DNA of 64,000 nucleotides. It comes from Sulfitobacter sp. M39. Its GTDB lineage: Bacteria > Pseudomonadota > Alphaproteobacteria > Rhodobacterales > Rhodobacteraceae. Below the pieces are notes generated by a model. It did no database searches, had not been told where the DNA came from, and saw nothing but the letters and a program-made list of their open reading frames with translations. Where the stretch lies: positions 2,232,001-2,296,000 of the forward strand of contig NZ_WMDZ01000001.1 of NCBI RefSeq assembly GCF_021735935.1, written 5' to 3'. The translations under genes and the position numbers were made by a program. Of this stretch, positions 1,631 through 15,624 are shown in pieces; within the stretch, counting starts at the first letter, position 1, and each line of letters opens with the position of its first letter.

Positions 1631-3161
1631 ATGGGATTTCTGAGGATTATTCGGAAATGGGCTCTGCGAGACAAGATGCCCATCCGCGAGATTGCGCGCC
1701 GGACAGGGGTGTCTCGCAACACGATCAAGAAGTATCTGCGGACAGGGATAGTTGAGCCCGAGTTCCAGATTTTGAACCGACCGAGCAAGTTGGACCCTTA
1801 TGCTGATAAGCTGACAGGCTGGTTGCTGTCTGAGCAGCGTAAATCACGGAAGGAACGGCGAACGGCCAAGCAGATGCATGCGGATCTGGTTCAGCTCGGT
1901 TTTGATGGTTCATATGAGCGTGTCGCGGCCTTCGTGCGGAACTGGAAGGGCGAACGACAGCGTGCTCAACATACGACTGACCGTGGTGTTTTCGTGCCGT
2001 TGGTCTTTCAGCCAGGCGAGGCGTTCCAATTCGACTGGAGCGAGGACTGGGCCTATGTCGGGGGCGAACGCCTCAAGCTTCAGGTCGCCCATATCAAGCT
2101 GTCTCACAGCCGCGCATTTCTGGTCCGGGCCTATCGGCTGCAAACGCATGAGATGCTGTTCGATGCCCACTGGCATGGCTTTCGAGTGTTTGAGGGTGTT
2201 CCGGGGCGTGGCGTCTATGACAACATGAAGACAGCCGTCGACCGGATTGGCGTCGGAAAGAAGCGCGATGTAAACGCACGGTTCCTTGCGATGACCAGCC
2301 ATTATGTCTTTGACCCTGAGTTCTGCAATCCCGCGGCAGGGTGGGAGAAAGGTCAGGTTGAGAAGAATGTGCGCGACGCCCGCCATCGGCTTTGGCAACT
2401 CATGCCCGCCTTTCCGAACCTCAATGCGCTGAATGAATGGCTGGAGGAGCGCTGCAAGCTTCTGTGGGCCGAGACACCGCATGGCAGATTGCCTGGCAAT
2501 ATTGCGGATGTCTGGGACGCCGAGAAGGCCGCGCTGATGCCACTGCCCACAATGTTTGACGGCTTTGTCGAGCAGAGCAAGCGGGTATCCCCCCACTTGT
2601 CTGATAGCATTCGACCGTAATCGCTACTCAGTGCCTGCCAGCTTTGCGAACCGCCCTGTCAGTCTCCGCATCTATCCTGAACGGCTGGTCATCGTCGCCG
2701 AAGGCCATGTGGTCTGCACGCATGAGCGCATTATTGAACGCTCACACCGTCAGCCAGGGCGCGTTATTTATGACTGGCACCATTATCTGGCGGTGGTTCA
2801 ACGCAAACCCGGCGCGCTGCGCAACGGGGCGCCCTTCGTTGAGATGCCAGAAGGGTTCCGGAAGCTGCAGGATCATATGTTGCGTAGGCCAGGTGGTGAC
2901 CGCGAGATGGTCGACGTTCTGTCCTTGGTGCTCCACCATGACGAACAGGCCGTGCTTTGCGCGGTGGAAATGGCGCTGGATGCGGGCGTACCAACAAAAA
3001 CCCATGTCTTGAACCTACTTCACAGGCTGGTGGATGGCGCACCGATAGACCAGCCCGATGTGACCCCGCCTGCGGCCCTTTCTTTGAATAAGGAGCCCGA
3101 GGCCAATGTCGCACGATATGACGGGCTACGCACTACAGGAGGAACACGTCATGCGTCATGA
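1631..3161 (+). pseudogene. istA: IS21 transposase IstA, frameshifted
   Basis: IstA is the DDE transposase of IS21 elements. The N-terminal part (MGFLRIIRKWALR...) has a helix-turn-helix at about residues 17-37 (IREIARRTGVSRNTIKKYL). It is followed by an RNase H-like core with FQFDWSED, YDNMK and GQVEKNV carrying the D, D and E positions. At 2589-2594 there is a run of six Cs. In the current frame the protein ends shortly after (SPHLSDSIRP, stop at 2618-2620). Removing one C joins it to the next frame, which reads SPTCLIAFDRNRYSVPASF and continues to 3161 with typical IstA C-terminal sequence. The joined product would be about 509 residues, a normal IstA length. The start at 1631 is chosen because homologous IstA proteins begin near this motif; an upstream GTG at 1622 is possible. 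Confidence 0.9.
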
Positions 3162-3942
3162 TCCCGCAGGCGCTGCCATCGTCATTATGATGCGCAGCCT
3201 GAAGATGCCGGGCATGGCACAGGCCGTGCAGGACCTGCATGAGCAGGGATCGCCCGCTTTCGATGCAGCGATCCCCATGTTGTCGCAGCTGCTTAAGGCC
3301 GAAATAGCTGAACGTGAGGTGCGTTCCATCGCCTACCACATGAAGGCAGCACGCTTTCCGGCATACAAAGACATCTCTGGCTTCGACTTTAGCGCCAGCG
3401 AAGTCCGTGAAGCTTTGGTCCGTCAACTTCATCGATGCGAGTTCATGGAGGCGGCTGAGAATGTAGTGCTGATCGGAGGCCCTGGAACGGGAAAATCGCA
3501 TGTCGCTACCGCCCTCGGCATTCAAGCAATCGAGCATCATCGCAAGCGTGTGCGCTTCTTCTCCACGGTCGAGTTGGTCAATGCGTTGGAGCAGGAAAAG
3601 GCCCAAGGCAAGGCAGGAAAGATCGCCGAGGCGCTGGTGAAAGCCGATTTGGTGATCTTGGATGAGCTGGGATATTTGCCGTTCAGCGCTTCGGGTGGCG
3701 CGCTGCTGTTCCACCTTCTGAGTAAACTCTACGAGCGCACCAGCGTCGTTATCACAACCAACCTGAGCTTTAGCGAATGGGCCAGCGTGTTCGGTGATGC
3801 CAAGATGACCACCGCGCTCCTCGACCGCCTCACACATCGTTGCCACATTCTCGAGACCGGCAATGACAGCTATCGGTTCAAGGCCAGCTCGGCGACAGCC
3901 AAACAAAAACGAAAGGAGAAAGCGGCATTGACGCCATCATAA
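3151..3942 (+). CDS. istB: IS21 helper ATPase IstB
   Basis: IstB is the AAA+ ATPase (DnaC/DnaA-like clade) that helps the IS21 transposase select targets and assemble. The 263-residue product from ATG 3151 ([10 protein letters not shown]) has Walker A GGPGTGKS at about residues 109-116, a Walker B-like LVILDELGY, and the sensor region [12 protein letters not shown]. It ends in a basic KQKRKEK tail. An AGGAGG-like ribosome site lies at about 3135-3141, which favours this start over an in-frame ATG at 3106. The istA frame ends inside the first codons of istB (stop 3159-3161), consistent with translational coupling. The gene itself looks intact. Confidence 0.92.
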
Positions 3943-3986
3943 AGCAAAGAACATAACAACTGGGTGGGTCAAGTCTCAGTGACAAT

Positions 3987-4015
3987 GCCGGGTCAGTTAT
4001 AAGTGACAATCAACA
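3987..4015 (-). repeat. IS21 right terminal inverted repeat
   Basis: The complement reads TGTTGATTGTCACTTATAAC and onward, pairing with the left end at 1518-1546. The inner repeat abuts it at 3966-3986, with the same spacing logic as on the left. Confidence 0.85.
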
Positions 4016-4218
4016 TACGGGCCTGAAGTTCAGCACTTTGGTAGTGATAGACGCGCTACGAATCATCGAAGCGGAAATCCGCATAGAAGTCCCGTCAGTA
4101 TCGCGTACTGTAGCCCCAGCTAACGCCAATACAGAAAGATCTCTTTCGTTAATATCGCAACGACTGTGGCTGTTCATTTCACAGCGTACCCGCCCACCAA
4201 ATAGAGTAAACCACAGGT

Positions 4219-4701
4219 ATGAAGAAACAACTTAAACCGAAATGGGAATTCGTGTCGGACACCGTCATGGGCGGTGTATCGAGCGGTTGCATCGCAGAAG
4301 AAAGCGTTGGCGGCCGCGATGCCACGGTTCTTCGCGGTACAGTTTCGCTTGAGAACAACGGTGGCTTTATCCAGATGGCATTTGATCTTCACCAAGGTGG
4401 TGCAGATGTGGACGTGAGCGCGTGGGACGGCATCGAGATTGACGCATATGGCGATGGCGACTCCTACGATGTTCGGCTTCGCACGGCGCAACTAACCAGA
4501 CCTTGGCAATCTTTTCGCGCCGATTTTATGGGCGAGCCACACTGGCAAAAGGTTAAGATTCCTTTTTCTTCATTGGTATCGCATCGGGTGGAAGCAGTAT
4601 TCGACCCAACTTGCCTTAGACGCGTCGGGATATTGGCGATAGGACGCGAACGTGATGCCTGTATAGCAGTATCCAACATCGGGTTTTACTCGGCGAACTA
4701 A
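4219..4701 (+). CDS. CIA30-domain protein
   Basis: The 160-residue protein has the CIA30 signature near its N-terminus (WEFVSDTVMGGVSSG, about residues 9-23). This is followed by a beta-rich jelly-roll-like body with a GGFIQMAF strand and the W-x-K-V-x-I-PFSSL segment. CIA30 (NADH:ubiquinone oxidoreductase complex I intermediate-associated protein 30) is named for a mitochondrial complex I assembly factor; bacterial stand-alone versions have no settled role. No signal peptide or membrane segment is seen. It sits alone just right of the IS21 element, with about 200 bases of non-coding DNA on each side. The family call is firm; the function is unknown. Confidence 0.8.
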   Translation: MKKQLKPKWEFVSDTVMGGVSSGCIAEESVGGRDATVLRGTVSLENNGGFIQMAFDLHQGGADVDVSAWDGIEIDAYGDGDSYDVRLRTAQLTRPWQSFRADFMGEPHWQKVKIPFSSLVSHRVEAVFDPTCLRRVGILAIGRERDACIAVSNIGFYSAN

Positions 4702-4910
4702 GTAAAATTCCTGCGTGCCAACCTATCGGGCTGAAGATTGTATCCAAGTTAGCGGCGCCGCAGGTCAGCCTTCTTAAGGTTCTATCGAGTTACTGGCGCG
4801 ACCTCTTATCGACATTGCTGTGTACGACGGCATCATGCCCGAAGCGTACGGTCAAATTTAGACCTCTACTTCACAAGGAAAACCCAGCCGTTTGGACCGG
4901 TTGGCCTCCC

Positions 4911-6182
4911 CTATCTCACCACCGGCAGGTCTTCCATTCGCGTGGTATAGCGCGGGCTTCGATGATCTGCGCGCAATCGCCACGTTTGGTTCTTACCTTC
5001 GCTGGCCAGAACCATCGTCTTCTTCCCGAACCTATCGTTCACGTCATCCAAAGCCTTCATCAACTCCGGGGATTTCGGACGCGCTTGATCGAAGAGCGTT
5101 TGAGGACGATCTTCGAACCGCACCAGGTCATTCAGCATGATACCAGCCTTTGTGAAGCCATAGCTTTTAACGTCCGACTTAGGCCATGCGGCTTCCGCGC
5201 AGCGTCGTGCGGCCTCAACGAGATCAAAGGTATCCGACGACATCGGGGTCATGCGGGTAGTTCTCGATGCAGTATACTGGGGTCGATCTGGCCGGTGCTT
5301 ATTGGTGTGGAAAAACACAGTCAGCGTACCAGCGACCAAGCCGTGCTGGCGTAGCTTTTCAGCGCCCCGTGATGCGTGCGCGGTAATCGCCTGGAACAGC
5401 GTGTCGAAGCCTGTCATCGGAGTGCCTGCTGACCGTGTTACAGCCATACCTTTGCGCTGTGGCTCTACGTCCTCAAAGGCGAGACACGCCTCACCCTGTA
5501 GCTCCAATACGATCCTCTCCAGCACTACAGTACCAACAGCCCGTGCCTGCCGGATTGGCAGATCACGAAGATCGGCTGCCGTGTGTACACCCAGGGCCTT
5601 CAACTTGTCGGTGGTCTTGCGACCAACGCCCCAGATGTCCCCGACTGGCACGCGTGGCAGCAGCCAGCGCGCAAGGCTCTCATCCATCATATCCAAGACC
5701 CCTGCAAAAATGGGGTTCTTCTTGGCGATATCGTTCGCACATTTCGCAAGCGTCTTGGTGGGCGCGATGCCAATACGTACTGGCACCCCTACTCTCCTTA
5801 GGACCGCTGCACGCAGCGCCATGGCATGTGCAGTGCGGTCCTTGAATCCGACGAAGTCGAGGAAGCATTCATCGATGGAATAGATATCGACGTTTGGCGT
5901 GAAGTCTTCGTAGACCTCAACCACCCGACGAGAGATATCGCCATAGAGGGTGTAGTTCGAGCTGAAGACGCGGATACCATGAGCATCAACCTTTTCGCGA
6001 ATATGATGCAGCGGAGTGCCCATCTTGATCCCCAAGGCCTTGGCCTCATCGCTGCGCGCTATGGCGCAGCCGTCGTTGTTTGATAGCACGATCACCGGGA
6101 CGTTCTTTAGCGTTGGATCAAATATCCTCTCAGCGCTCACGTAGAAGTTCGCACTGTCACTGATCGCAACAGGCCGCTTCAT
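4911..6182 (-). CDS. umuC: Y-family translesion DNA polymerase V catalytic subunit
   Basis: UmuC bypasses replication-blocking lesions as the catalytic subunit of DNA polymerase V, usually with a processed UmuD' dimer. The 423-residue protein is full length. It begins AISDSANFYVSAERIF, with the first catalytic Asp at residue 9. It has VLSNNDGCAIAR, SSNYTLYGDIS, and the second catalytic pair in YSIDECF (Asp104, Glu105). A helix-hairpin-helix-like segment (VGDIWGVGRKTTDKL) and the little-finger region follow. The ATG overlaps the umuD stop by four bases, so translation is coupled. A LexA-type operator upstream of umuD probably controls both genes. All catalytic residues are present, in contrast to umuD. 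Confidence 0.93.
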   Translation of the reverse strand: MKRPVAISDSANFYVSAERIFDPTLKNVPVIVLSNNDGCAIARSDEAKALGIKMGTPLHHIREKVDAHGIRVFSSNYTLYGDISRRVVEVYEDFTPNVDIYSIDECFLDFVGFKDRTAHAMALRAAVLRRVGVPVRIGIAPTKTLAKCANDIAKKNPIFAGVLDMMDESLARWLLPRVPVGDIWGVGRKTTDKLKALGVHTAADLRDLPIRQARAVGTVVLERIVLELQGEACLAFEDVEPQRKGMAVTRSAGTPMTGFDTLFQAITAHASRGAEKLRQHGLVAGTLTVFFHTNKHRPDRPQYTASRTTRMTPMSSDTFDLVEAARRCAEAAWPKSDVKSYGFTKAGIMLNDLVRFEDRPQTLFDQARPKSPELMKALDDVNDRFGKKTMVLASEGKNQTWRLRADHRSPRYTTRMEDLPVVR

Positions 6183-6594
6183 GCCAAGTCGTAACGCCGG
6201 ACAACACCAGCGATGACGCCCCAGATCTCGCTATCCTCAGTTAGCTCGACGTCGGGGAACTGCTGCTGACTATTCGCAGGCGCGAGGTAGTACCTGTCAC
6301 CACGCTTACGCAGGATCTGTGCTGTGACGGCACCTTCCACCACGGCCAGCACGGCTCTCCCGATGCGACGCTTGCCAGCACGGTCTACAGCGATGATGTC
6401 ACCATCACGTATCCCAGCGTCCCACAGGCAGTCCCCTTCTACGCGCCACCAAAATGTCGATGCAGGATGGCGCACGACCCATGCCATAGGGTCAATCTCA
6501 TCTTCGAGGTCGTCCCCAGCTGGCGAAGGAAAACCTGCGCTGACTGGTGTGCTGACAATTCGAACAGATTGAGATGGTATGTGGACGGGTTCAT
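6179..6594 (-). pseudogene. umuD: UmuD-like SOS mutagenesis protein, apparently degraded
   Basis: The clear frame from ATG 6487 covers only 102 residues (MAWVVRHPASTFWW...). The frame stays open upstream and encodes the conserved UmuD N-terminus, including the cleavage-site region SAGFPSPAGDD, but has no ATG, GTG or TTG before a TAG at 6634-6632. An ATG at 6594 lies one base out of frame. Adding one base at the C-run at 6589-6587 would give MNPVHIPSQS..., 138 residues, against 139 in E. coli UmuD. In that numbering the usual GDSM serine is Cys (GDCL, residue 56) and the usual TVK lysine is Gln (TAQ, residue 93). Their spacing is 37, the same as Ser60 to Lys97 in E. coli. Self-cleavage should therefore be lost or altered. 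Confidence 0.75.
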
Positions 6595-6626
6595 CAACTG
6601 GGTAAACTGGCGTGGGAATCCTAACT

Positions 6627-6641
6627 GTTCGCTATTTGTTC
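6627..6641 (-). promoter_or_regulatory. LexA (SOS) operator upstream of umuDC
   Basis: The sequence GTTC-GCTATTT-GTTC is an exact match to the alphaproteobacterial LexA box GTTC-N7-GTTC. It lies about 33 bases upstream of the ATG at 6594 and reads towards umuD-umuC on the minus strand, as expected for an SOS-controlled operon. A match of eight fixed bases at this site is unlikely by chance. Confidence 0.8.
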
Positions 6642-6788
6642 TCAATCTGCGATTCACCTGCCCGATGTCAAGTTTGGTTTGGGGTAATGCGGACAGGAGA
6701 CTGGCATCAGAACGAACCGAGTTTGCAAACTCAACGATGGAGGATAGCGCCCTGACACCCTGCCCTGCTTACAGAAGGTGAAGAGGCC

Positions 6789-7511
6789 TCACTGGAGGTG
6801 CACCGATTGAAGCAAATTGTCAGTGTCTAACTTCAAAACACTGCGCCAGAGCGGGCTTTTAAACACGTGGACAGCGCGCATTTCCGCGCCCTGGTCTTGG
6901 GTCGACATCAGCAATCCGGCCCATTCAAGCGGTCGTAAAACGCAGGCCTTAAAGGCGTATATGTCCCGCCTGGCAGCATTGCGGTCACTCTCCGGTTCAC
7001 CATAGAATTTTTGGTATAGGGCAACGTCGCTGATGCCGTGATCGGCCTCTACGTTGATCACATTCATCCAGACATCCCAATTCCCGAAGGGCTGGTCATC
7101 AAAGCGTGCATAAGAGGCGTGATCTATCTGGTGTACAAAATACGGGATCAATTCGACAAACAGGCGACCAGGGGCTTGTGCTAACTCTTTGCCACGTTTG
7201 GTTAGCTGAAACTCATCCTTGAAGTGGCGACCAAGGCGTAATTCGATCATCAGGAAGTGCAGTACTTCGAGCGGCGCGAAGTCGGTTTCGTTGACCACCT
7301 TATGATAGCGGAACACCTCATCCGCACCTTCTCCGGGCCAGTCAAAATTCTGTACAGCCCAATGAACGAAGGTACGCTTGAACGCTTTGCTTTTGGTGGT
7401 CCCTATCGATCCGTGTTCCTGCGTATATCGCAGCGTTAGAAGAGCTGCCCGCAGGAGCGGTGATCGCATTAGGTCGGGATGGTGGTCAGCGAGAGTTTGG
7501 TATTCGATCAT
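6789..7511 (-). CDS. Uncharacterised 240-aa protein
   Basis: The product starts MIEYQTLADHHPDLMRSPLL and is soluble, with no signal peptide or membrane segment. An N-terminal module (about residues 15-115) contains HGSIGTTKSKAFKRTFVHWA, then a VVNETDFAPLEVLHFLM helix, and ends QLTKRGKELA. Its pattern looks like a small winged-helix or helical domain, and I recall similar domains in hypothetical proteins of mobile regions. The C-terminal half (VWMNVINVEADHG...) is not recognised. It lies upstream of umuDC on the same strand but is separated from it by the LexA box, so it is probably not in that operon. No function is claimed. Confidence 0.65.
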   Translation of the reverse strand: MIEYQTLADHHPDLMRSPLLRAALLTLRYTQEHGSIGTTKSKAFKRTFVHWAVQNFDWPGEGADEVFRYHKVVNETDFAPLEVLHFLMIELRLGRHFKDEFQLTKRGKELAQAPGRLFVELIPYFVHQIDHASYARFDDQPFGNWDVWMNVINVEADHGISDVALYQKFYGEPESDRNAARRDIYAFKACVLRPLEWAGLLMSTQDQGAEMRAVHVFKSPLWRSVLKLDTDNLLQSVHLQ

Positions 7512-7919
7512 ACCTGGAACGTCTCACACACCGCGTGGCTGCGCCATGATATTCGCGGTAGCCGAATGCATAGGGAGCAATACAAGACGGATCCAATAGT
7601 AGCGAAACGTATTTGTGTACGCCCCAGCAGTTCGCGGCATGCTGAACGGACTTTATTGCTTTGGTCAAAACAGCGAAACGAACTGTTAGCCTGAAATTTC
7701 GACATACGAGATCGGCGGGAAGCCAACCTTCGCTGCACACTCAATGAAGAGCTGGTTCAGTCTGCCCCGCTGTATGCGCAAATTACCAACGACATGGCTG
7801 GAGTGGCTGCGCAATCGCGGGAGTTGAATCGACACAAGTATTGAAAATGACTCCAAAGTCGGCTCTCATGACTTAAATGTTTGAGGGCATTTTTTTAGAT
7901 CACTATTATCGGTGGGAAA
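7512..7919. other. Gene-free spacer (408 bp)
   Basis: I see no convincing gene here. Short open frames on both strands have no recognisable protein pattern. A segment near 7719-7741 (AAGCCAACCTTCGCTGC) resembles one near 10240-10262 and may be an eroded repeat. The start region of the SGNH hydrolase gene follows directly. Confidence 0.5.
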
Positions 7920-9977
7920 ATGAGATATTTCAGGATATTCACGTTCGCGGCTGCTACGGTGCTGGCCTGTGCAGTGTCTGCTGAAGAAACTACGCAGATA
8001 ATTGAATGGGAAGTAAAAAACAGGTTCGGCCCCTTTGCCACCCAGAGCGACCCTGCAGGCCTATTCGAAAACTACAAATTGCTTGAGGGGGAAAGCTTCG
8101 AAAGCTGGCACAACCGTCTTTCAAGTGAAGGCCTACCTTCTCCCTATTACGAAGCCCTCAAAGCACGTCAGCACGAAAAGATGCACTGGGATCAGAGCGT
8201 CAGTCGACACCAAGACAAAATTCTCAGCTACGTCAGACATGAAAACGATATCAGCACCACGGTTGCTGTCGCCGCTCACGTGCCTTCAAATGAACAATGT
8301 AGTTGGACGTATCGAGGGCAAGAAATAACGCAGCCATGCGACGAAGACTTCGAGTTTCATGTGCCAATTTCCGGTGCCACAGTGCGAGTTGCTTTCGCAG
8401 GCCATGAAATAGAAAAGCTGATCGAACCAAGTCATATTGTGATCGTAGGTTTGGGGGATAGTTACGCCTCTGGTGAAGGCAATCCGGACTATCCCGGTGA
8501 GTGGAAACCAGACCAAGTCCTTCCAGGGAACAACGAACTCGAATGGCTGGTTGACTATAGGAACCGTCTAATTTCGCCACCTGAGGCCTTTGACGCAAAG
8601 ACCAACCACTGGGTTGATGATACTTGTCATCGCAGTTTTTACAGTCATCAGAGTCTTACTGCGCTTAAAGTCGCCTCAGAAAATAAGCATTCGTACGTTT
8701 CCTTTTTGCACTACGCTTGCACTGGAGCCGAAGCCTTCGACGGCTTGCTTGCCCCACAATATCAGGCCTGGGGTGAAAAAGGGGTTTTTGTACCGTTCTC
8801 GCAAGTCAATTTTGCGATCCGTGAGCTCTGTCAAGACGGGAAACCTCTTGGTGAGGCCGCACCACATTATGAATCTGTTTCACAGAAAGAGACTGCGGGT
8901 ATAAGCATTGCCGCTTTCCATCGACGGGGTGGCCCGGGCAACCTGCCACGGAGCCGCAGCAATCTCATACCTGATCCAAAACTGGACGCGTTTAGCCGAT
9001 TTACGAAAAATCTGCGTGACAAAAACGACGGCCATTTCCCGCAGTCCGGTCTATTGACTTGCGAAACGGGGAAGATGAGAACCCCAGATTATGTGTTTTT
9101 GAATGAAGGTGGGAATAGCATAGGATTTGCTGATATCGTGCAGTACTTTATTGTTCCTTCGCGGTGGAAAATAGAGAAAGTCGGGAGGCGTTTGTTCCCT
9201 GAGGTTTGCCCGAATCCGGCCTATCGTGTTGACAGAAAATACAATAGGCAGCTCCACGATTATTGTGAAGATTTAGATAGAGAGATCAACTATCACTCTG
9301 GCGATTTGATCAGCGGGGCGTCAAAATCATTGGGAATGAAGGACCGATATACATTATTGTTCAATGTATTGGAGTATCGCTTGGGGCTTGAGCCAAGAAA
9401 AATTGTGATGGCTCAATATCCCGATCCTATGCGTGAGACTGGCTCTTCAAGCCCTGCTTGTAAGCCTCTTAACTCAGTGGACTTTGAAGTGCGTGGCGAC
9501 CCTGCTGGCGTTTTCAATCCGCAAAGTGCGTGGAGTGGCTTGAAAGCTGTAGCCCCGAAGGCGCTTATTCGCACGTTGAGTAACATCCCAATTGGGCGAA
9601 ATTTTCGTGAGTGGCAGTTCAACCTAACAGCAAGTGATGCTGGCAATGCTTTGAAACAGTTTGATGATTTGCGAGTAATTTTGGCCAATACAGCTACCAG
9701 TCGAGGAATATCTTTTGTGTGTGAAACACGCGATGCGTTTGTCGGTTATGGGTGGTGGAAGGGAGCTCGCCTCAATCTCCCCAACACCAAACCATATTGG
9801 GCGATTTGGGACTGGAAACCTTATGCCTATGAGGCCGAAACACGTGCGATTCGAACGGGAAATGATACGATTATCACTCAGCCTGGCGAAAAAAGGATAA
9901 CTGGCGCAATTCATCCAAACCTAACTGGACATCGGCTGATTGCTCAAGTCGTCTACGATAGCGTCTGGGGTAACTAA
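7920..9977 (+). CDS. Exported SGNH/GDSL-type hydrolase
   Basis: The 685-residue protein starts with a signal peptide (MRYFRIFTFAAATVLACAVSA, likely cleavage before EET). The SGNH block I motif GLGDSYASGEGNPD is at about residues 177-190, with nucleophile Ser181. HPNLTGHRLIA close to the C-terminus supplies a plausible block V His. These features predict a periplasmic or secreted serine esterase, lipase or acyl hydrolase; the substrate cannot be told. Many cysteines (for example CSWTYRGQEITQPC) suggest disulphides and an exported location. The gene is monocistronic, AT-rich compared with the core region, and much longer than simple GDSL esterases, with large unassigned segments before and inside the hydrolase core. 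It was probably acquired with the island. Confidence 0.8.
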   Translation: MRYFRIFTFAAATVLACAVSAEETTQIIEWEVKNRFGPFATQSDPAGLFENYKLLEGESFESWHNRLSSEGLPSPYYEALKARQHEKMHWDQSVSRHQDKILSYVRHENDISTTVAVAAHVPSNEQCSWTYRGQEITQPCDEDFEFHVPISGATVRVAFAGHEIEKLIEPSHIVIVGLGDSYASGEGNPDYPGEWKPDQVLPGNNELEWLVDYRNRLISPPEAFDAKTNHWVDDTCHRSFYSHQSLTALKVASENKHSYVSFLHYACTGAEAFDGLLAPQYQAWGEKGVFVPFSQVNFAIRELCQDGKPLGEAAPHYESVSQKETAGISIAAFHRRGGPGNLPRSRSNLIPDPKLDAFSRFTKNLRDKNDGHFPQSGLLTCETGKMRTPDYVFLNEGGNSIGFADIVQYFIVPSRWKIEKVGRRLFPEVCPNPAYRVDRKYNRQLHDYCEDLDREINYHSGDLISGASKSLGMKDRYTLLFNVLEYRLGLEPRKIVMAQYPDPMRETGSSSPACKPLNSVDFEVRGDPAGVFNPQSAWSGLKAVAPKALIRTLSNIPIGRNFREWQFNLTASDAGNALKQFDDLRVILANTATSRGISFVCETRDAFVGYGWWKGARLNLPNTKPYWAIWDWKPYAYEAETRAIRTGNDTIITQPGEKRITGAIHPNLTGHRLIAQVVYDSVWGN

Positions 9978-10452
9978 TCAATCATGGAAATCAGACCCCA
10001 ATCGACTATATGTCGATTGGTGCTCAAAGTCGAAATTCTTACTGTTGAAAGACGTTGACGTACGCTGGAAGCGCCAGTTGGCCGCTTGCTGAACAGCAAG
10101 ATTGTCCGCACTGTTGACCGTTGGGCCTTGGATTATGCTGCGCGGTGCCATGAAGGTCCGGTATGGGGAAGCCACGCTGCGGCACTTGTGATCCAGTCCA
10201 GTGACCGCAAAGGGCGGTTCTCGTCGATCTACATACGGGGCGGAAACCAAACCTTCGCCGCGCTCTGGATAGAGGGCTGCTACGCGGACCAAACTGTCGT
10301 CCACAAATTCCGCCCCAATGGCCACTGCCAACCCAAAGCGGACATGAAATCTGTCACATTGTGCGGAAAGCGGGAGCCTGCTGCGAGTTCAGTAACAGGT
10401 TCGTGCAAGATTTATCAAAAGCTCCTGAAAGAAAGCTCGAGGCTAAATATGT
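9978..10452. other. Gene-free spacer (475 bp)
   Basis: Short open frames on both strands overlap each other here, and none shows a protein-family pattern. The stretch around 10060-10340 looks like eroded, formerly GC-richer sequence, with fragments similar to those in other island spacers (CCTTCGCCGC at 10252). I see no terminator with a T-run directly after the SGNH gene. Confidence 0.45.
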
Positions 10453-11388
10453 TCAACAACACAGATTCTTCACTCTTACATAATCTCTAATCAAGTGATG
10501 GCTGACATTATTCCCATCGGATAAGACGGAGTTAGTTAGATCAAGCGCAAACTGACAAAAAGTTAGTGCGCAATTGGTAAACCTGATCAAATCGGTTTGC
10601 CCAACGAGGCATTGAAACCGTCCTTCCAATACACTGAGCGCTATTTCCTCGAACGAGCCAGTAGGGGGAAACCGTTTCCCGCCGTAAGGATACCAGGTTT
10701 GTAATGCAAAGCGGTATTGGACTTGGTTTCGGGTGTAAGAAAGGAAGTTACCAGTCCTAAATTTTTGGTCATCCGTAAGTCGAGCGATATGCTCAGTCAA
10801 GAGTTCAACAGTCGCATCTCGCGAAGCTTTAGGTGCTGCGACAGCTACGGCTCCGGACCGTAATTGGTCCAGGATATCGACAACTGTGGACCATGTGTCT
10901 TCATGAGAGTTTTTAAGCGGAACAAATGTCAGAGCACCTAAATCATTAGATACATCGACACGAAAGAAGCCCTTTTTGGGAAATGTTAGCCCGGTTACTT
11001 TGGCAACTTCCTGTATTCTCGCAAATTCGGTTCCATCTATATTGGAACACATGACACCGAACAATCTGAGAAAAGCGTGCGCACTATAGAAAGCCGCATA
11101 GTAAGCGCGAATTACGAACCAAGCGGTGTTACGAGGCGACCTTGTGTCAGTCACAATTCCTGACAGTGATTCAAGTGCTGCGCGCGCAAATTTACTGCAG
11201 TCACCAGCACAAGCGGATTTCAGTTCGTCTGGCATGTAAGGTCGCAACTTGACCAGTTCTCCCGAGGTTTCAAAAACATACCGTTGCGACGCGACAAAGG
11301 CTTTGAAGTCTTGGAGCTGAGAGCTATGCTCCACCATCAGGTCTCGACGTATCTGCCTCTGGAGTGCTATTGGAATATCTACGTCCAT
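10453..11388 (-). CDS. Unknown partner of the DGQHR protein, possibly HEPN-like
   Basis: The product from ATG 11388 (MDVDIPIALQ) has 311 residues and is predicted soluble and mostly helical. Residues 94-108 (RAYYAAFYSAHAFLR) resemble the YYAAF-x-A-x-x-LL helix of HEPN domains. The canonical R-x4-6-H catalytic spacing is not clear, so ribonuclease activity cannot be claimed. The start sits one base after the TGA of the DGQHR gene (TGAAATG), which implies tight co-translation. A TTG at 11424 is an alternative start. The gene pair is isolated by long spacers on both sides. I do not recognise a named family for the full protein. Position between other nuclease and effector genes suggests a defence or toxin role, which is inference only. 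Confidence 0.65.
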   Translation of the reverse strand: MDVDIPIALQRQIRRDLMVEHSSQLQDFKAFVASQRYVFETSGELVKLRPYMPDELKSACAGDCSKFARAALESLSGIVTDTRSPRNTAWFVIRAYYAAFYSAHAFLRLFGVMCSNIDGTEFARIQEVAKVTGLTFPKKGFFRVDVSNDLGALTFVPLKNSHEDTWSTVVDILDQLRSGAVAVAAPKASRDATVELLTEHIARLTDDQKFRTGNFLSYTRNQVQYRFALQTWYPYGGKRFPPTGSFEEIALSVLEGRFQCLVGQTDLIRFTNCALTFCQFALDLTNSVLSDGNNVSHHLIRDYVRVKNLCC

Positions 11389-11389
11389 T

Positions 11390-12370
11390 TCAGAGCAGAA
11401 AGTCGGAATCCAAGCACTCCTCAAAGTGCTTAACCAATGGTTTGTAAGCGTTTTTCGCTTCCTTCACTTTAGCTGGTCGTAACTTATCACGGGCAGGATC
11501 CAGTATTTCTGAAAAGTAATCGTAAGTATAGACAGACCCGTGTCTGTATTTAGTCCTCCGAGCTACAGTCGGAAAAAAGCCACTTATAGCTTTAAAGACG
11601 GTTGGTTGATAGAATTCCACTGCAAGGCCGCGGGGTTGAAACACCGTATCAAATACCGCCTGATAGTATGAGGCCAGAACCTGATAAACATCTTCATCAG
11701 ACATACCTCCAAACAGCTTTACCAGCGGGCCGACCGCAGAGTTAAAAAGCGTTCTGGTTATTTTCCCACTTACCTTTTTCGCAGATGAAAGTTTTCCATA
11801 GAGTATTGTGGAGGGGTCATCTTTAAACCAGTCGAATATGACTCTCATTCTTGCTTCGGCATCATTTTCATATTCGGCCATCTTTTTAATATCTAACAAA
11901 AGCTCGGTTGGAACACCTTTCTGCTTAGAGTTAATGTCAATGAACAATCGAGACTCTTCGCGCTTGTTCAGATTATCATAGATGACAACCGGTACCCGCA
12001 AATTACTTTTCGCCAACGAGAACCCATAGACTCGGTGTTGACCATCTAAGATAAGAAACGCTTGTTGGATGTCCTTAAAAGAAATGCTTTTCGCTTTCGG
12101 GGAGTAAACGAGATCAGCATCATCCTGTGCAGAGAGCACGATGGAACTTGGTACGGTGCCTAAACCATTGTCGATATAATCGGCAATATCTTGAGCCCTT
12201 TTCCTATCCAAAACTCGCTGGAACCCTGCGATATTATCTTCTTCGCGGCTGATTGCGATACAAGTTCGTGCAAGCACTTCACTTTGAATAGTCGTCGTAT
12301 AAAATTTGTGTTCACCTTGTGTCACCAGACTTACGGTTCCGAAGCTTAGACGGCTGGGCTCTTTTCTCAT
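11390..12370 (-). CDS. DGQHR-domain protein (DndB/ParB-like fold)
   Basis: The 326-residue protein carries LDGQHRVYGF at residues 108-117, preceded by QRVLDRKRAQDIADYI at 51-66 and followed by RLFIDINSKQKGV at 141-153. These three blocks define the DGQHR family, which includes DndB of the phosphorothioation system and has a ParB/sulfiredoxin-like fold. Family members act as regulators or nucleotide-binding parts in DNA modification and defence loci. No dnd, ssp or dpd enzyme genes are present nearby, so this is not a complete system of those types. The gene lies directly upstream of an unknown, possibly HEPN-like gene, and the two form an obvious two-gene unit. Confidence 0.8.
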   Translation of the reverse strand: MRKEPSRLSFGTVSLVTQGEHKFYTTTIQSEVLARTCIAISREEDNIAGFQRVLDRKRAQDIADYIDNGLGTVPSSIVLSAQDDADLVYSPKAKSISFKDIQQAFLILDGQHRVYGFSLAKSNLRVPVVIYDNLNKREESRLFIDINSKQKGVPTELLLDIKKMAEYENDAEARMRVIFDWFKDDPSTILYGKLSSAKKVSGKITRTLFNSAVGPLVKLFGGMSDEDVYQVLASYYQAVFDTVFQPRGLAVEFYQPTVFKAISGFFPTVARRTKYRHGSVYTYDYFSEILDPARDKLRPAKVKEAKNAYKPLVKHFEECLDSDFLL

Positions 12371-12841
12371 TGAAAAATACCATTTCCTAAATTAAATTTG
12401 GCTTTGTATAGAGACAGCTAAGCTTGTCACACCAGAAGTTGTAAACGCAACCCGTGTCTTCACAAACGGACAAAGGCAAGACACGGTGCAGCATCGGATC
12501 ATTTCCCCCAAGTCTGCTACATGCCTCGCGTGAACTTGCAAAGTGTACCAACTGCACATATCCATATCCGCCGCTCGCGCTAACCACGGCATCCGTCATT
12601 GTGGGCTCGAATAAGACGTTAACTGCAACGAGCACCAAGGTCGGCAGAGCGGACCTTTCAGACCTTCGCGGCAAGTGCGCCAATGTCCGGTTCAGCGAAC
12701 TGCTCAATAAACGTCCGTTTCTGGAAGGCTGTGCGGGTAAGGTGAATGTCCGAAAAGATTCACTTTAAGCCAGGCTAAACGAGGCCATAAGATTTTCCTT
12801 GGAATTTTTGAATATGATAAAAGCTCTGCTTCTAAGGCCGA
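12371..12841. other. Gene-free spacer (471 bp)
   Basis: Overlapping short frames occur on both strands without recognisable protein sequence. The part next to 12370 is very AT-rich and probably holds the promoter of the DGQHR operon; a TATACA hexamer reading leftward is at 12411-12406, but I see no clear -35 partner. Confidence 0.45.
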
Positions 12842-14020
12842 TTATTGTTTAATGGCGCTTAGCGTCGTGCCAATATTTACAGAGGATTCCGAAAGAAAAT
12901 CCAAAACTTCGCTGATGGATTTAAGTGTGCGTCTTTTGGCTTGATTTAACTTAGAAGTCATTCTTGGCGTTGCTGATATTGCGCGTTGAAAATTCGCAAT
13001 CTGCGCGTGAACATTATCCAGCGTTGACTTCATATTTTCAAGTTGATCAACAAGTTCGTTGACTTCATCTATACTGCTAATTCCGTCTTGCCGGGAGATC
13101 ATAACGGCATGCTGCATACCACGAAGCGCTGCAGAAAATTCACGCTTTAGATCTGGTGTCGCTTGGTCAAGTATATGAGAGTAACGCTGCATTTCTGCAG
13201 CAACCTTCTCTATAATTGGCTTGATAACCTTATTATCTTGTCGAAACTCACCCGTTAGGTCGATTTTTCTGAGCTCAGTAGTTCGAGTTTCTATCTTGTC
13301 GCCCAGTTTTTTTGTCGCTGTAGTTATTGTTTCCATGGTTTCAGTGGAGTTCTCAAACGCATCCAACACTATGTCCGAAAGCTCCATCAACCCAATATCT
13401 TCATCAAACTCACTAACCTCAATGAGCGCGCTATCAGTGTTGGGCTTCGATGGTATCTCAGCATCGCCTCTATTTTCATTTACGGTAACGCGGCTTTTTA
13501 GGCGTTCGATTGCTTTAATAAGTGCAGCCACCACCATGGTTTTCAGGCTGTCGTGAGTGTCAAACTCACCGTACACACCAAGCCCGCCAAGCTTCTTTTT
13601 GAAGTTGGCAACCTTTAATAGCTGCTCGGCATCAATGATCGTTTCAGATTTTCTTGGATCTTTGAAGTAGAACAATATTTCAGGGCCATTTTCTTTATTT
13701 CTACGCCGTTCATAGGCTCTATAAAACTCCTCCTCCGTACCCGATTCATAGTTTTCAGTTTGCTGTCCAAACCGATTGCAGAGAATTCCGACAAATATAT
13801 CGTACTCATCTCCGACTTCTTCATTTATTACATCTTGCGGCGAGCTGCCGATTTGGGAGGATACATCCTTTTCCCAGCGGATAGGATTGAGCCTAAAACC
13901 TTCTTTTGCACCGCTAATTTGATTAATTTGCTCTATGGCTTCTTGAACAGTATCGCGCTCCGCCATGACATCTGACGGTGATGAGATGAAAACATCGTAG
14001 CTCTTAAAATCTTTTGCCAT
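12842..14020 (-). CDS. DUF4062 protein with long helical C-terminus
   Basis: The N-terminal domain starts SYDVFISSPSDVMAERDTV (about residues 7-25) and continues through GDEYDIFVGILCNRFG (70-85). This is the DUF4062 signature, a TIR-like Rossmann domain commonly fused to NACHT or other signalling modules in defence-type proteins. Here no ATPase follows. Residues about 190-392 are instead a long heptad-rich helical region (METITTATKKLGDKIETRT, QLENMKSTLDNVHAQIANFQ) resembling a coiled-coil signalling stalk without membrane segments. The start at 14020 is chosen for a GAGG six bases upstream; a TTG at 14032 is in frame. The gene stands alone between spacers of 471 and 355 bases. The domain call is good; the function is unknown. 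Confidence 0.75.
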   Translation of the reverse strand: MAKDFKSYDVFISSPSDVMAERDTVQEAIEQINQISGAKEGFRLNPIRWEKDVSSQIGSSPQDVINEEVGDEYDIFVGILCNRFGQQTENYESGTEEEFYRAYERRRNKENGPEILFYFKDPRKSETIIDAEQLLKVANFKKKLGGLGVYGEFDTHDSLKTMVVAALIKAIERLKSRVTVNENRGDAEIPSKPNTDSALIEVSEFDEDIGLMELSDIVLDAFENSTETMETITTATKKLGDKIETRTTELRKIDLTGEFRQDNKVIKPIIEKVAAEMQRYSHILDQATPDLKREFSAALRGMQHAVMISRQDGISSIDEVNELVDQLENMKSTLDNVHAQIANFQRAISATPRMTSKLNQAKRRTLKSISEVLDFLSESSVNIGTTLSAIKQ

Positions 14021-14375
14021 GGGAAACCTCAAATACAGCTCTAACTAACATAACGCTGTTTCACGCAAGTGTATATGGGACCAAGCAAAAAGCTTCATAG
14101 GCCTTTTCCGTTACTGCCGCCATCATTCTCTAATGATCTTAAAGCGAACAAACCTCATTACAGAACTTGCCTGCCAATCACACTCATTATTGGTAGGGCT
14201 GAGAAACGGTCGATTTTCGGCTGCCAGAAACCCCGTTCAAAGCTTAAGCATTTGTTGAAGGTTTTTGACTGCCTCACAACAGCGGACATACGTGGATCGT
14301 GCAGAATTGGTCAATTCGGGCTCGAACCGGACCTTAGCTGCAAAAACCAAGAAGGTCAGCTAAGGGCCGTTTATT
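14021..14375. other. Gene-free spacer (355 bp)
   Basis: AT-rich next to 14021, where the promoter of the DUF4062 gene should lie. The rest shows short open frames without family resemblance. Nothing else supportable is seen. Confidence 0.45.
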
Positions 14376-14831
14376 TTAGGACTTAACGACTTCAACACCA
14401 TAGGCTTCGAGCTTAGATTTAGCAGCTTGCACGGCTTCTGCAGGAAACCTCTCGGCAAATTCGACCACGACGTATTCCCCAGTATATTTAGCTGCGTCGG
14501 CAGCTACCAAGGCCTCGAAACCAGGAGTTACTTTTGGATCAAGTGCCCAATCCGTCAAGGTTTGTAGAGCCCCCTTGGCCGCGATTTTTCGACGGGTGTA
14601 GCTGGCCTGTTGTTTGCGACCGTGTTTCTCTCTAAGGGTTTCCTCATAAGCGGTTACCGCCTGCCATAATCGTCGTTCGATAGGGTCACCGTAGTCACAG
14701 GCAGATAGCTCATATATGCGAATTCTACACGCATTCGCTATATCTTTTCGCTTCAAGCGAACTGCGTTCGTCAGAAGCCTGCGAACTGCCTCGACATCTC
14801 TCATTGCACTTGGATTTGGGTCTTCAGTCAC
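14376..14831 (-). CDS. Uncharacterised small protein
   Basis: About 151 residues from a GTG at 14831, chosen because AAGGGG lies eight bases upstream; a GTG at 14852 is also in frame. The sequence is charged and helical: ERRLWQAVTAYEETLREKHG, then RKQQASYTRRKIAAKGALQTL, a GFEALV segment, and VVVEFAERFPAEAVQAAKSK. I recall similar W-x-A-x-x-x-Y-E-x-x-L-x-x-KHGR blocks in alphaproteobacterial hypothetical proteins but know no function. It is on the same strand as the nuclease gene upstream (ends 14980), with 150 bases between them. Confidence 0.6.
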   Translation of the reverse strand: MTEDPNPSAMRDVEAVRRLLTNAVRLKRKDIANACRIRIYELSACDYGDPIERRLWQAVTAYEETLREKHGRKQQASYTRRKIAAKGALQTLTDWALDPKVTPGFEALVAADAAKYTGEYVVVEFAERFPAEAVQAAKSKLEAYGVEVVKS

Positions 14832-14979
14832 AGATTGATCCCCTTTGCACACTTTTCAAGGTAAAAAAGTTTGCCCTAAAATTAGCGCTGAGTATACGTT
14901 GTTATCCGCTCGCTACCAGTTGAGGTCAAAGACCCAACAACGGCTGCCACACCGCATCAGGCGGACTTGCTGATGGGTG

Positions 14980-15624
14980 TTAGCTTTGGGCCGTTCCTTC
15001 ATTTCCCTTGCTTTGACCATTCTTTTGCGCGTCAAACTTTTCCCAAACATGCATGCGGCCTTTCTGACGTGCATCGGCAAGCCAAAGTTTCTTGCGGACC
15101 CCCGTGATCTCAAGATTACCATATTTACCACCTGAGAACTTCGGCCAGTCGATAGCGAGCCCCAGCTTGACCATTTCCTCGGACAGGTCACGACCATCAG
15201 GAAGGAAGCACTTTGCGACTGTGCGGCCAAATTCGTCTTCATCAGTAATCTCGGCGCGTATACTATGCCCCTTACACAGATTGACCATCGCCCACTTGGC
15301 CTTTTTGCCGTAGGGGTGATGTAGTTCAGGCGCATCTATCCCGTGAAGGCGCACTTGGGTCTTTTGGATCGTAATTGTGTCACCGTCTGTAACGTATGCT
15401 GGCCCTTCCAACACGCGTGGCAGCGTGACCGAGTGAGCGGTCGTTTCATCGAATGCTTCGCCCCATGCTGGCGTATTAGACTGCGGCGCTTTTGGCTGCG
15501 CAGGAGAAGCAGATATGCCGCGAACTGTGTCATCGGCAGACGTCTCTTTAACGGGGTGAGTTTTTGACTTGGACTTCTGCCGATAAGACGGCTTGAACAG
15601 CGCTCTAAAAAGAAATTTCAACAT
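14980..15624 (-). CDS. Thermonuclease-family (SNase-like) nuclease
   Basis: The 214-residue protein has a staphylococcal nuclease fold: VTDGDTITI (about 78-86), VRLHGIDAPE (91-100) and DEFGRTVAKC (130-139). Arg92, Glu100 and Arg134 correspond to the catalytic Arg35, Glu43 and Arg87 of micrococcal nuclease, so the enzyme should be an active Ca2+-dependent nuclease. About 70 residues precede the domain. They begin with a short hydrophobic stretch (MLKFLFRALF) and then a basic, low-complexity linker, so it may be membrane-linked or exported, but a clear signal peptide is not seen. The C-terminal tail is charged. Stand-alone TNase genes of this type are common in alphaproteobacterial mobile regions. 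Confidence 0.85.
   Translation of the reverse strand: MLKFLFRALFKPSYRQKSKSKTHPVKETSADDTVRGISASPAQPKAPQSNTPAWGEAFDETTAHSVTLPRVLEGPAYVTDGDTITIQKTQVRLHGIDAPELHHPYGKKAKWAMVNLCKGHSIRAEITDEDEFGRTVAKCFLPDGRDLSEEMVKLGLAIDWPKFSGGKYGNLEITGVRKKLWLADARQKGRMHVWEKFDAQKNGQSKGNEGTAQS

Follow-up and report, generated by a model that had tools for sequence, protein, structure and literature searches.

A gene for a DGQHR-domain protein and the gene directly behind it, whose product has a predicted HEPN fold, form a pair that travels as a nearly fixed unit across distant bacteria, plasmids and phages. We describe this pair from the genome of Sulfitobacter sp. M39 (3.34 Mb), in a stretch of 64,000 nucleotides referred to here as the window (G000:C1:2232001-2296000). 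A preliminary description of this DNA had proposed a two-gene unit of a DGQHR-domain protein and a possibly HEPN-like partner; both open reading frames (ORFs) are indeed found there, the DGQHR gene first, joined by the junction TGA A ATG (Table 1). The pair is probably an anti-virus or toxin module. The narrower proposal, to which we give about even chances, is that of a small mobile module in which the DGQHR protein would act as a nucleoside triphosphate (NTP)-binding switch controlling a ribonuclease (RNase) effector of HEPN fold, protecting the population or a resident element.

Conservation of the gene pair

A contig scan of genomes recovered 30 loci, with DGQHR identities of 45-81%. In 28 of these, as in the window, the partner profile matched immediately behind the DGQHR gene, and in the other two, L007 and L028, which are cut by a contig end, the start of the partner is present, so that the genes stand together in 30/30 relatives. 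Because it recurs in all of them, the arrangement is beyond chance. Where the gap between the two genes was measured (28 loci), it ranges from -28 to +29 bp. The distances of the two proteins also co-vary (24 loci, Mantel r 0.90; none of 5000 permutations came as high, the highest reaching 0.39), in a test run without L013, L023, L027, L029 and L030, where the DGQHR gene is split or cut, and without L007 and L028. The preliminary description had named two outcomes that would speak against the unit, a pair that is not conserved together and a partner from a housekeeping family; neither was observed.

Searches that started from the partner gave 15 loci beyond its own (L038 and L057 apparently repeat the site of L002): 11 with a DGQHR gene, one with a 99-aa remnant of it (L060), one without it (L036) and two cut by a contig end. 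Partner matches are patchy, occurring in 1/385 genomes of the class, 5/394 of the family and 4/398 of the phylum, the genome of origin being counted each time. Homologs of the DGQHR protein numbered 2340 at E <=1e-10, and such counts are lower bounds, one search having scored the 7997 candidates sharing most words and another having listed 120 of the 2340. In its own genome the DGQHR protein matches only itself.

In L029 (Limnohabitans, 8240-8372) and L030 (Comamonas, 8240-8333) a -1 change of frame splits the DGQHR gene; it falls at the same position in both, immediately ahead of the DGQHR motif. The site in L030 contains a poly-A/T stretch resembling a slippery site, and the partner frame is open in both loci. 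The split is possibly a programmed frameshift or a shared lesion.

The DGQHR protein

The three blocks behind the original family call, QRVLDRKR, LDGQHR and FIDIN, are all present in the window protein, and QR, DGQHR and FIDIN are invariant across 18 aligned sequences that include it. The protein belongs to the DGQHR domain family TIGR03187, scoring 138.1 bits vs a curated cut-off of 58.85. It shares the QR, DGQHR and FxxxN blocks and the ParB/Srx fold with DndB and the other DGQHR proteins of the Dnd and Dpd systems (PF14072, TIGR03187), but lies far below the equivalog cut-offs for DndB (TIGR03233, 17.3 bits vs 328), DpdB (NF041060, 47.3 vs 300) and DGQHR_dnd_1 (78 vs 450), and its own neighbour is a HEPN-fold protein. 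Only DpdB/DndB models were matched in PADLOC, and no PADLOC defence-system model matches both proteins of the pair.

Matches to the predicted ParB/Srx fold include free serine kinase and sulfiredoxin, as well as SspE and BrxU at low Z. According to the part of PMC4619093 available, GmrSD/BrxU and SspE (DUF262) have a related ParB/Srx domain with DGQQR; their nuclease domains are of HNH type, whereas a HEPN-fold partner stands here. The window pair is not a GmrSD type IV system, its motif being DGQHR and neither protein having an HNH match.

Among DGQHR-type proteins, a DndB-like protein has been reported to bind ATP and GTP (PMC12704722, in part), the N-terminal domain of DndB has been linked to AIPR/HEPN proteins (PMC3506569, in part), and what DndB does is still under debate (PMC10853773, in part). 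From similarly partial texts, a plasmid matched by CRISPR spacers carries a DGQHR gene and a restriction endonuclease gene (PMC12757443), and mycobacterial clades are associated with a DGQHR gene and a DpnIIA methyltransferase (PMC9248903).

Fold and conserved residues of the partner

The helix that had first suggested a HEPN domain, YYAAFYSAHAFLR, is present in the partner; across 115 aligned partners, W90, Y96, Y97 and R108 never vary. The preliminary description had called for a check for a HEPN bundle, and structure prediction gives the partner this helical fold, which places it in the HEPN superfamily; its best structural match is the HEPN-T type typified by AF_0298 (PF05168, 2hsb). The partner profile compared with two HEPN proteins gave P values of 1e-4 to 4e-4, and 0.03-0.23 with their reversals. 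Other routes to an assignment failed: Foldseek alone returned nothing significant, searches by sequence for a solved structure found none at E 10 for P0001 or the A3 partner profile, and no known family was recovered (none in Pfam or PADLOC, and just E 0.2 in NCBIfam). None of 30 partner members matches a Pfam HEPN family, PF05168 included; L054, L056 and L069 were left out of the PF05168 set.

The statement that the partner lacks a standard catalytic motif holds in that Rx4-6H is absent from the window copy. Position 227 is His in 61/113 partners and Phe in the window, and we rejected a canonical HEPN RNase acting through Rx4-6H for the partner clade. It needs amending in that a candidate alternative active site, H162 with R220, N221 and Y225, is conserved (Table 1). 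H104 is kept in 113/115 aligned partners. The distant partners of the Pf phage and Providencia retain H162, W166, R220, N221 and Y225 but not H104, and the profile comparison of the partner with the Pf-phage partner gave a probability of 95.

The available part of a survey of HEPN proteins (PMC3710099) reports that in AF0298-type HEPNs and AbiV the motif His is typically missing while a basic residue is retained, and that a second conserved His, from an insert between helices 2 and 3, could build an alternative active site. By the order of its residues the partner fits this HEPN-T pattern, with a conserved second His (H162) N-terminal to the Arg (R220). The HEPN-T of AF_0298 likewise has an unconserved motif His, a retained Arg and another conserved His on the N-terminal side; the partner differs from it in its length of ~310 aa, in lacking a Pfam HEPN match and in a neighbour that is not a nucleotidyltransferase.

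HEPN proteins that form fusions or operons with ParB proteins (Saro_3948, MAE_28990 and L-PSP-HEPN; PMC3710099, in part) likewise link HEPN to a ParB-fold protein. These are other HEPN families, for which the survey gives the canonical motif as wholly or mostly kept, and a DGQHR two-gene unit is not described among the fusions and operons in the portion of that survey at hand.

Mobile carriers and defence neighbours

The setting of the pair is mobile and partly defence-linked. Thirteen of 33 plasmid and phage records with a match were inspected. The 10-kb Acinetobacter plasmid pTR3_4 has a methyltransferase, a NotI-family restriction endonuclease, the DGQHR gene and the partner in one gene run, and the pair is also carried by Providencia plasmids (1 of 15 inspected), by a Burkholderia glumae plasmid (1 of 4 inspected) and by IMG/VR contigs. 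In the Pf phage PfAC19 it corresponds to ORF3-ORF2, adjoining the repressor gene; the available text of PMC11878078 ties most Pf accessory genes to anti-phage defence and lists PfAC19 with toxin-antitoxin genes and PfsE, with no mention of DGQHR for this phage in that text. Weakly related genes follow the DGQHR gene in Acinetobacter phage MD-2021a (L118), behind cI and a methyltransferase, and on a Leptospira plasmid (L119), with a restriction endonuclease nearby.

Integrase and transposase genes lie alongside the chromosomal pairs and are the most frequent Pfam matches (up to 4 of 146 neighbours). Among ten mapped neighbours are a methyltransferase and a restriction endonuclease at L003, a methyltransferase at L018 and Dnd genes at L024 and L031. 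Restriction-modification (R-M) or Dnd genes are thus named at no fewer than four of the 30 chromosomal loci, that is at least 4/30, among the best 25 of 159 PADLOC families for the 146 neighbours. It had also been claimed that the pair is not part of a known modification system. For Sulfitobacter this agrees with the absence of any DndC (TIGR03183) match in its genome, in which the other Dnd, Ssp and Dpd genes were not searched genome-wide, and the Dnd phosphorothioation system was not found with the pair; the claim is less secure for the relatives, given the Dnd genes in 2/30 (L024 and L031), and with them a link of the family to DNA modification stays conceivable. At L031 (Psychrosphaera, 2497-15050) DndH, DndD and DndC surround the pair, together with a second ORF that has a weak match to the DGQHR profile.

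These neighbours bear on a reading that we consider rather unlikely, in which the partner would serve as a non-catalytic HEPN scaffold, and the active enzyme would be the DGQHR protein, a ParB/Srx NTPase or nuclease that is accessory or back-up to R-M and phosphorothioation. The gene run of pTR3_4, the genes at L003, L018, L024 and L031, the methyltransferase ahead of the pair in the Acinetobacter phage and the missing canonical His of the window copy would all suit it. Such neighbours are nevertheless named at few chromosomal loci, within the scope given above, and the polar H162, R220, N221 and Y225 are near-invariant in a fast-evolving partner, which fits catalysis better.

A strong enrichment in defence islands was not supported: at a cut-off of 1e-30, 96 neighbour ORFs from 16 loci matched 62 PADLOC models (best 25 of 62 listed) vs 18 for 96 control ORFs, the controls being hand-picked stretches elsewhere on the same contigs and the models overlapping. 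The surplus is modest and concentrated in few loci.

A conserved third gene was sought and not found. When 345 neighbour ORFs were compared all against all, five clusters emerged, of which the largest (transposase-like by eye) spans 4 loci and two are the DndC and DndD of L024 and L031; 15 short ORFs of 161 were left out ahead of neighbour set A4. A pair of ordinary transcriptional regulators without an effector would recall DndB, which according to part of PMC12704722 represses the dnd operon in an ATP-dependent manner; with no such third gene as a target, we regard this as very improbable.

Proposed function of the pair

The data fit a stand-alone module against mobile elements: on mobile carriers, a protein with a nucleotide-switch fold adjoins one of HEPN fold that diverges fast and has a nearly invariant polar site. 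The DGQHR protein would sense infection, nucleic acid of foreign origin, or altered NTPs or DNA state, and would restrain, or license, its partner. The partner would be the effector, most likely a ribonuclease with the alternative active site suggested by its conserved residues (H162 with R220/N221/Y225). Activation may then stop the growth of the infected cell or destroy the transcripts of the invader, to the benefit of the population or of a resident prophage or plasmid. The link between DGQHR and HEPN is independently supported by plasmid pNL1 (L033 3293-5602, Novosphingobium), where a single 769-aa protein combines the DGQHR domain with a Swt1-like HEPN stretch at 639-743 (E 8e-4, below the Pfam cut-off).

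The pairing also has counter-examples. A partner with the full motif set lacks a DGQHR gene on a Tritonibacter plasmid (L036), where transposase-like genes (IS21-type by eye; 2240-5783) stop 127 bp before the orphan, and a short DGQHR gene in Cupriavidus (L122) has no such partner seen behind it. At L121 and L124 a radical SAM gene comes after the second DGQHR gene (~340 aa), and the long DGQHR proteins of pNL1, Sinorhizobium, Agrobacterium and Rhizobium have different neighbours. Against the A3 partner profile, the gene that follows DGQHR in the Acinetobacter phage falls below significance (E 0.06) and the Leptospira gene is barely significant (E 0.0017), with no His seen at the place of H162. 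On the Agrobacterium and Rhizobium plasmids the long DGQHR protein is followed by another DGQHR gene and by one of radical SAM type.

The pair resembles HEPN-MNT toxin-antitoxin systems in having two genes, the regulator first and the HEPN gene second; it is not one of them, the regulator here being a ParB/Srx-fold DGQHR protein and not a nucleotidyltransferase. By analogy, the pair could be an addiction module in which the DGQHR protein serves as antitoxin to a partner that is a constitutive RNase toxin, in keeping with two tightly coupled genes in the order stated for MNT-HEPN (PMC3710099, in part) and with carriage on plasmids and phages. This strict toxin-antitoxin reading is weakened because partners stay open without an intact DGQHR gene, in the L036 orphan behind its transposase-like genes, at L029 and L030, where that gene is split, and beside the remnant at L060, unless these copies are silent or inactive, or stem from draft errors. 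The DGQHR protein is also large and better conserved than its partner (mean identity 54% vs 29%), and we hold the reading to be unlikely.

A more specific form of NTP-gated HEPN immunity may be imagined, although we think it quite improbable: a kinase-like or nucleotidyl-transferring DGQHR enzyme, an idea raised by free serine kinase and sulfiredoxin among the fold matches, would modify the near-invariant Tyr/Arg site of the partner, silencing it until infection shifts the NTP pool and releases it. If true, this would be a new control of HEPN toxins, a counterpart of MNT-HEPN built on an unrelated fold, found across several phyla and carried by phages as well.

In the literature covered, partly as incomplete texts and with subscription papers and preprints outside it, we found no description of a DGQHR-HEPN-fold pair. 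DGQHR proteins are numerous and are annotated through Dnd; a HEPN-fold partner at a fixed place suggests a concrete, testable role for many of the short stand-alone ones. The pair connects the NTP-switch fold of ParB with an effector of HEPN type, and offers a function for phage-borne cargo adjoining repressor genes.

The locus in Sulfitobacter sp. M39

Table 1 Features of the DGQHR-partner pair in the window
Feature	Position	Strand	Remarks
DGQHR-domain protein gene	11390..12370	-	326 aa, predicted ParB/Srx fold, first in pair
Partner gene	10453..11388	-	311 aa, predicted HEPN fold, unnamed family, second in pair
TGA-A-ATG junction of the two genes	11386..11392	-	read in sequence
Partner residues 161-166, SHEDTW (H162, W166)	10891..10908	-	candidate alternative catalytic His; H162 114/115, W166 115/115
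Partner residues 220-227, RNQVQYRF	10708..10731	-	R220 114/114, N221 113/114, Y225 113/113; position 227 not His in window

Spacers of about 470 bp had been described on both sides of the pair, and they measure 475 bp to the ORF at 7920-9977 and 471 bp to the ORF at 12842-14032; the three short spacer ORFs scanned have no Pfam match above cut-off. The surroundings with McrBC and nucleases were likewise recovered, as McrC with an AAA protein, an SNase and a GIY-YIG protein, together with a DUF4062 protein and an IstB-type gene. Given these neighbours and a GC content of 45% in the pair vs 60% at 32-52 kb of the window, the pair likely sits in an acquired island. An empty-site search with a 10.5-kb query against 48 congeneric genomes matched just in pieces.

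The ORF at 12842-14032 has an N-terminal DUF4062 domain and a coiled-coil-like remainder, its N-terminal part matching the candidate defence model PDC-S60 (E 2e-41). The ORF at 7920-9977 encodes a 685-aa protein with no Pfam match above cut-off, which bears a GLGDSYASGEG motif that we take to be SGNH-hydrolase like.
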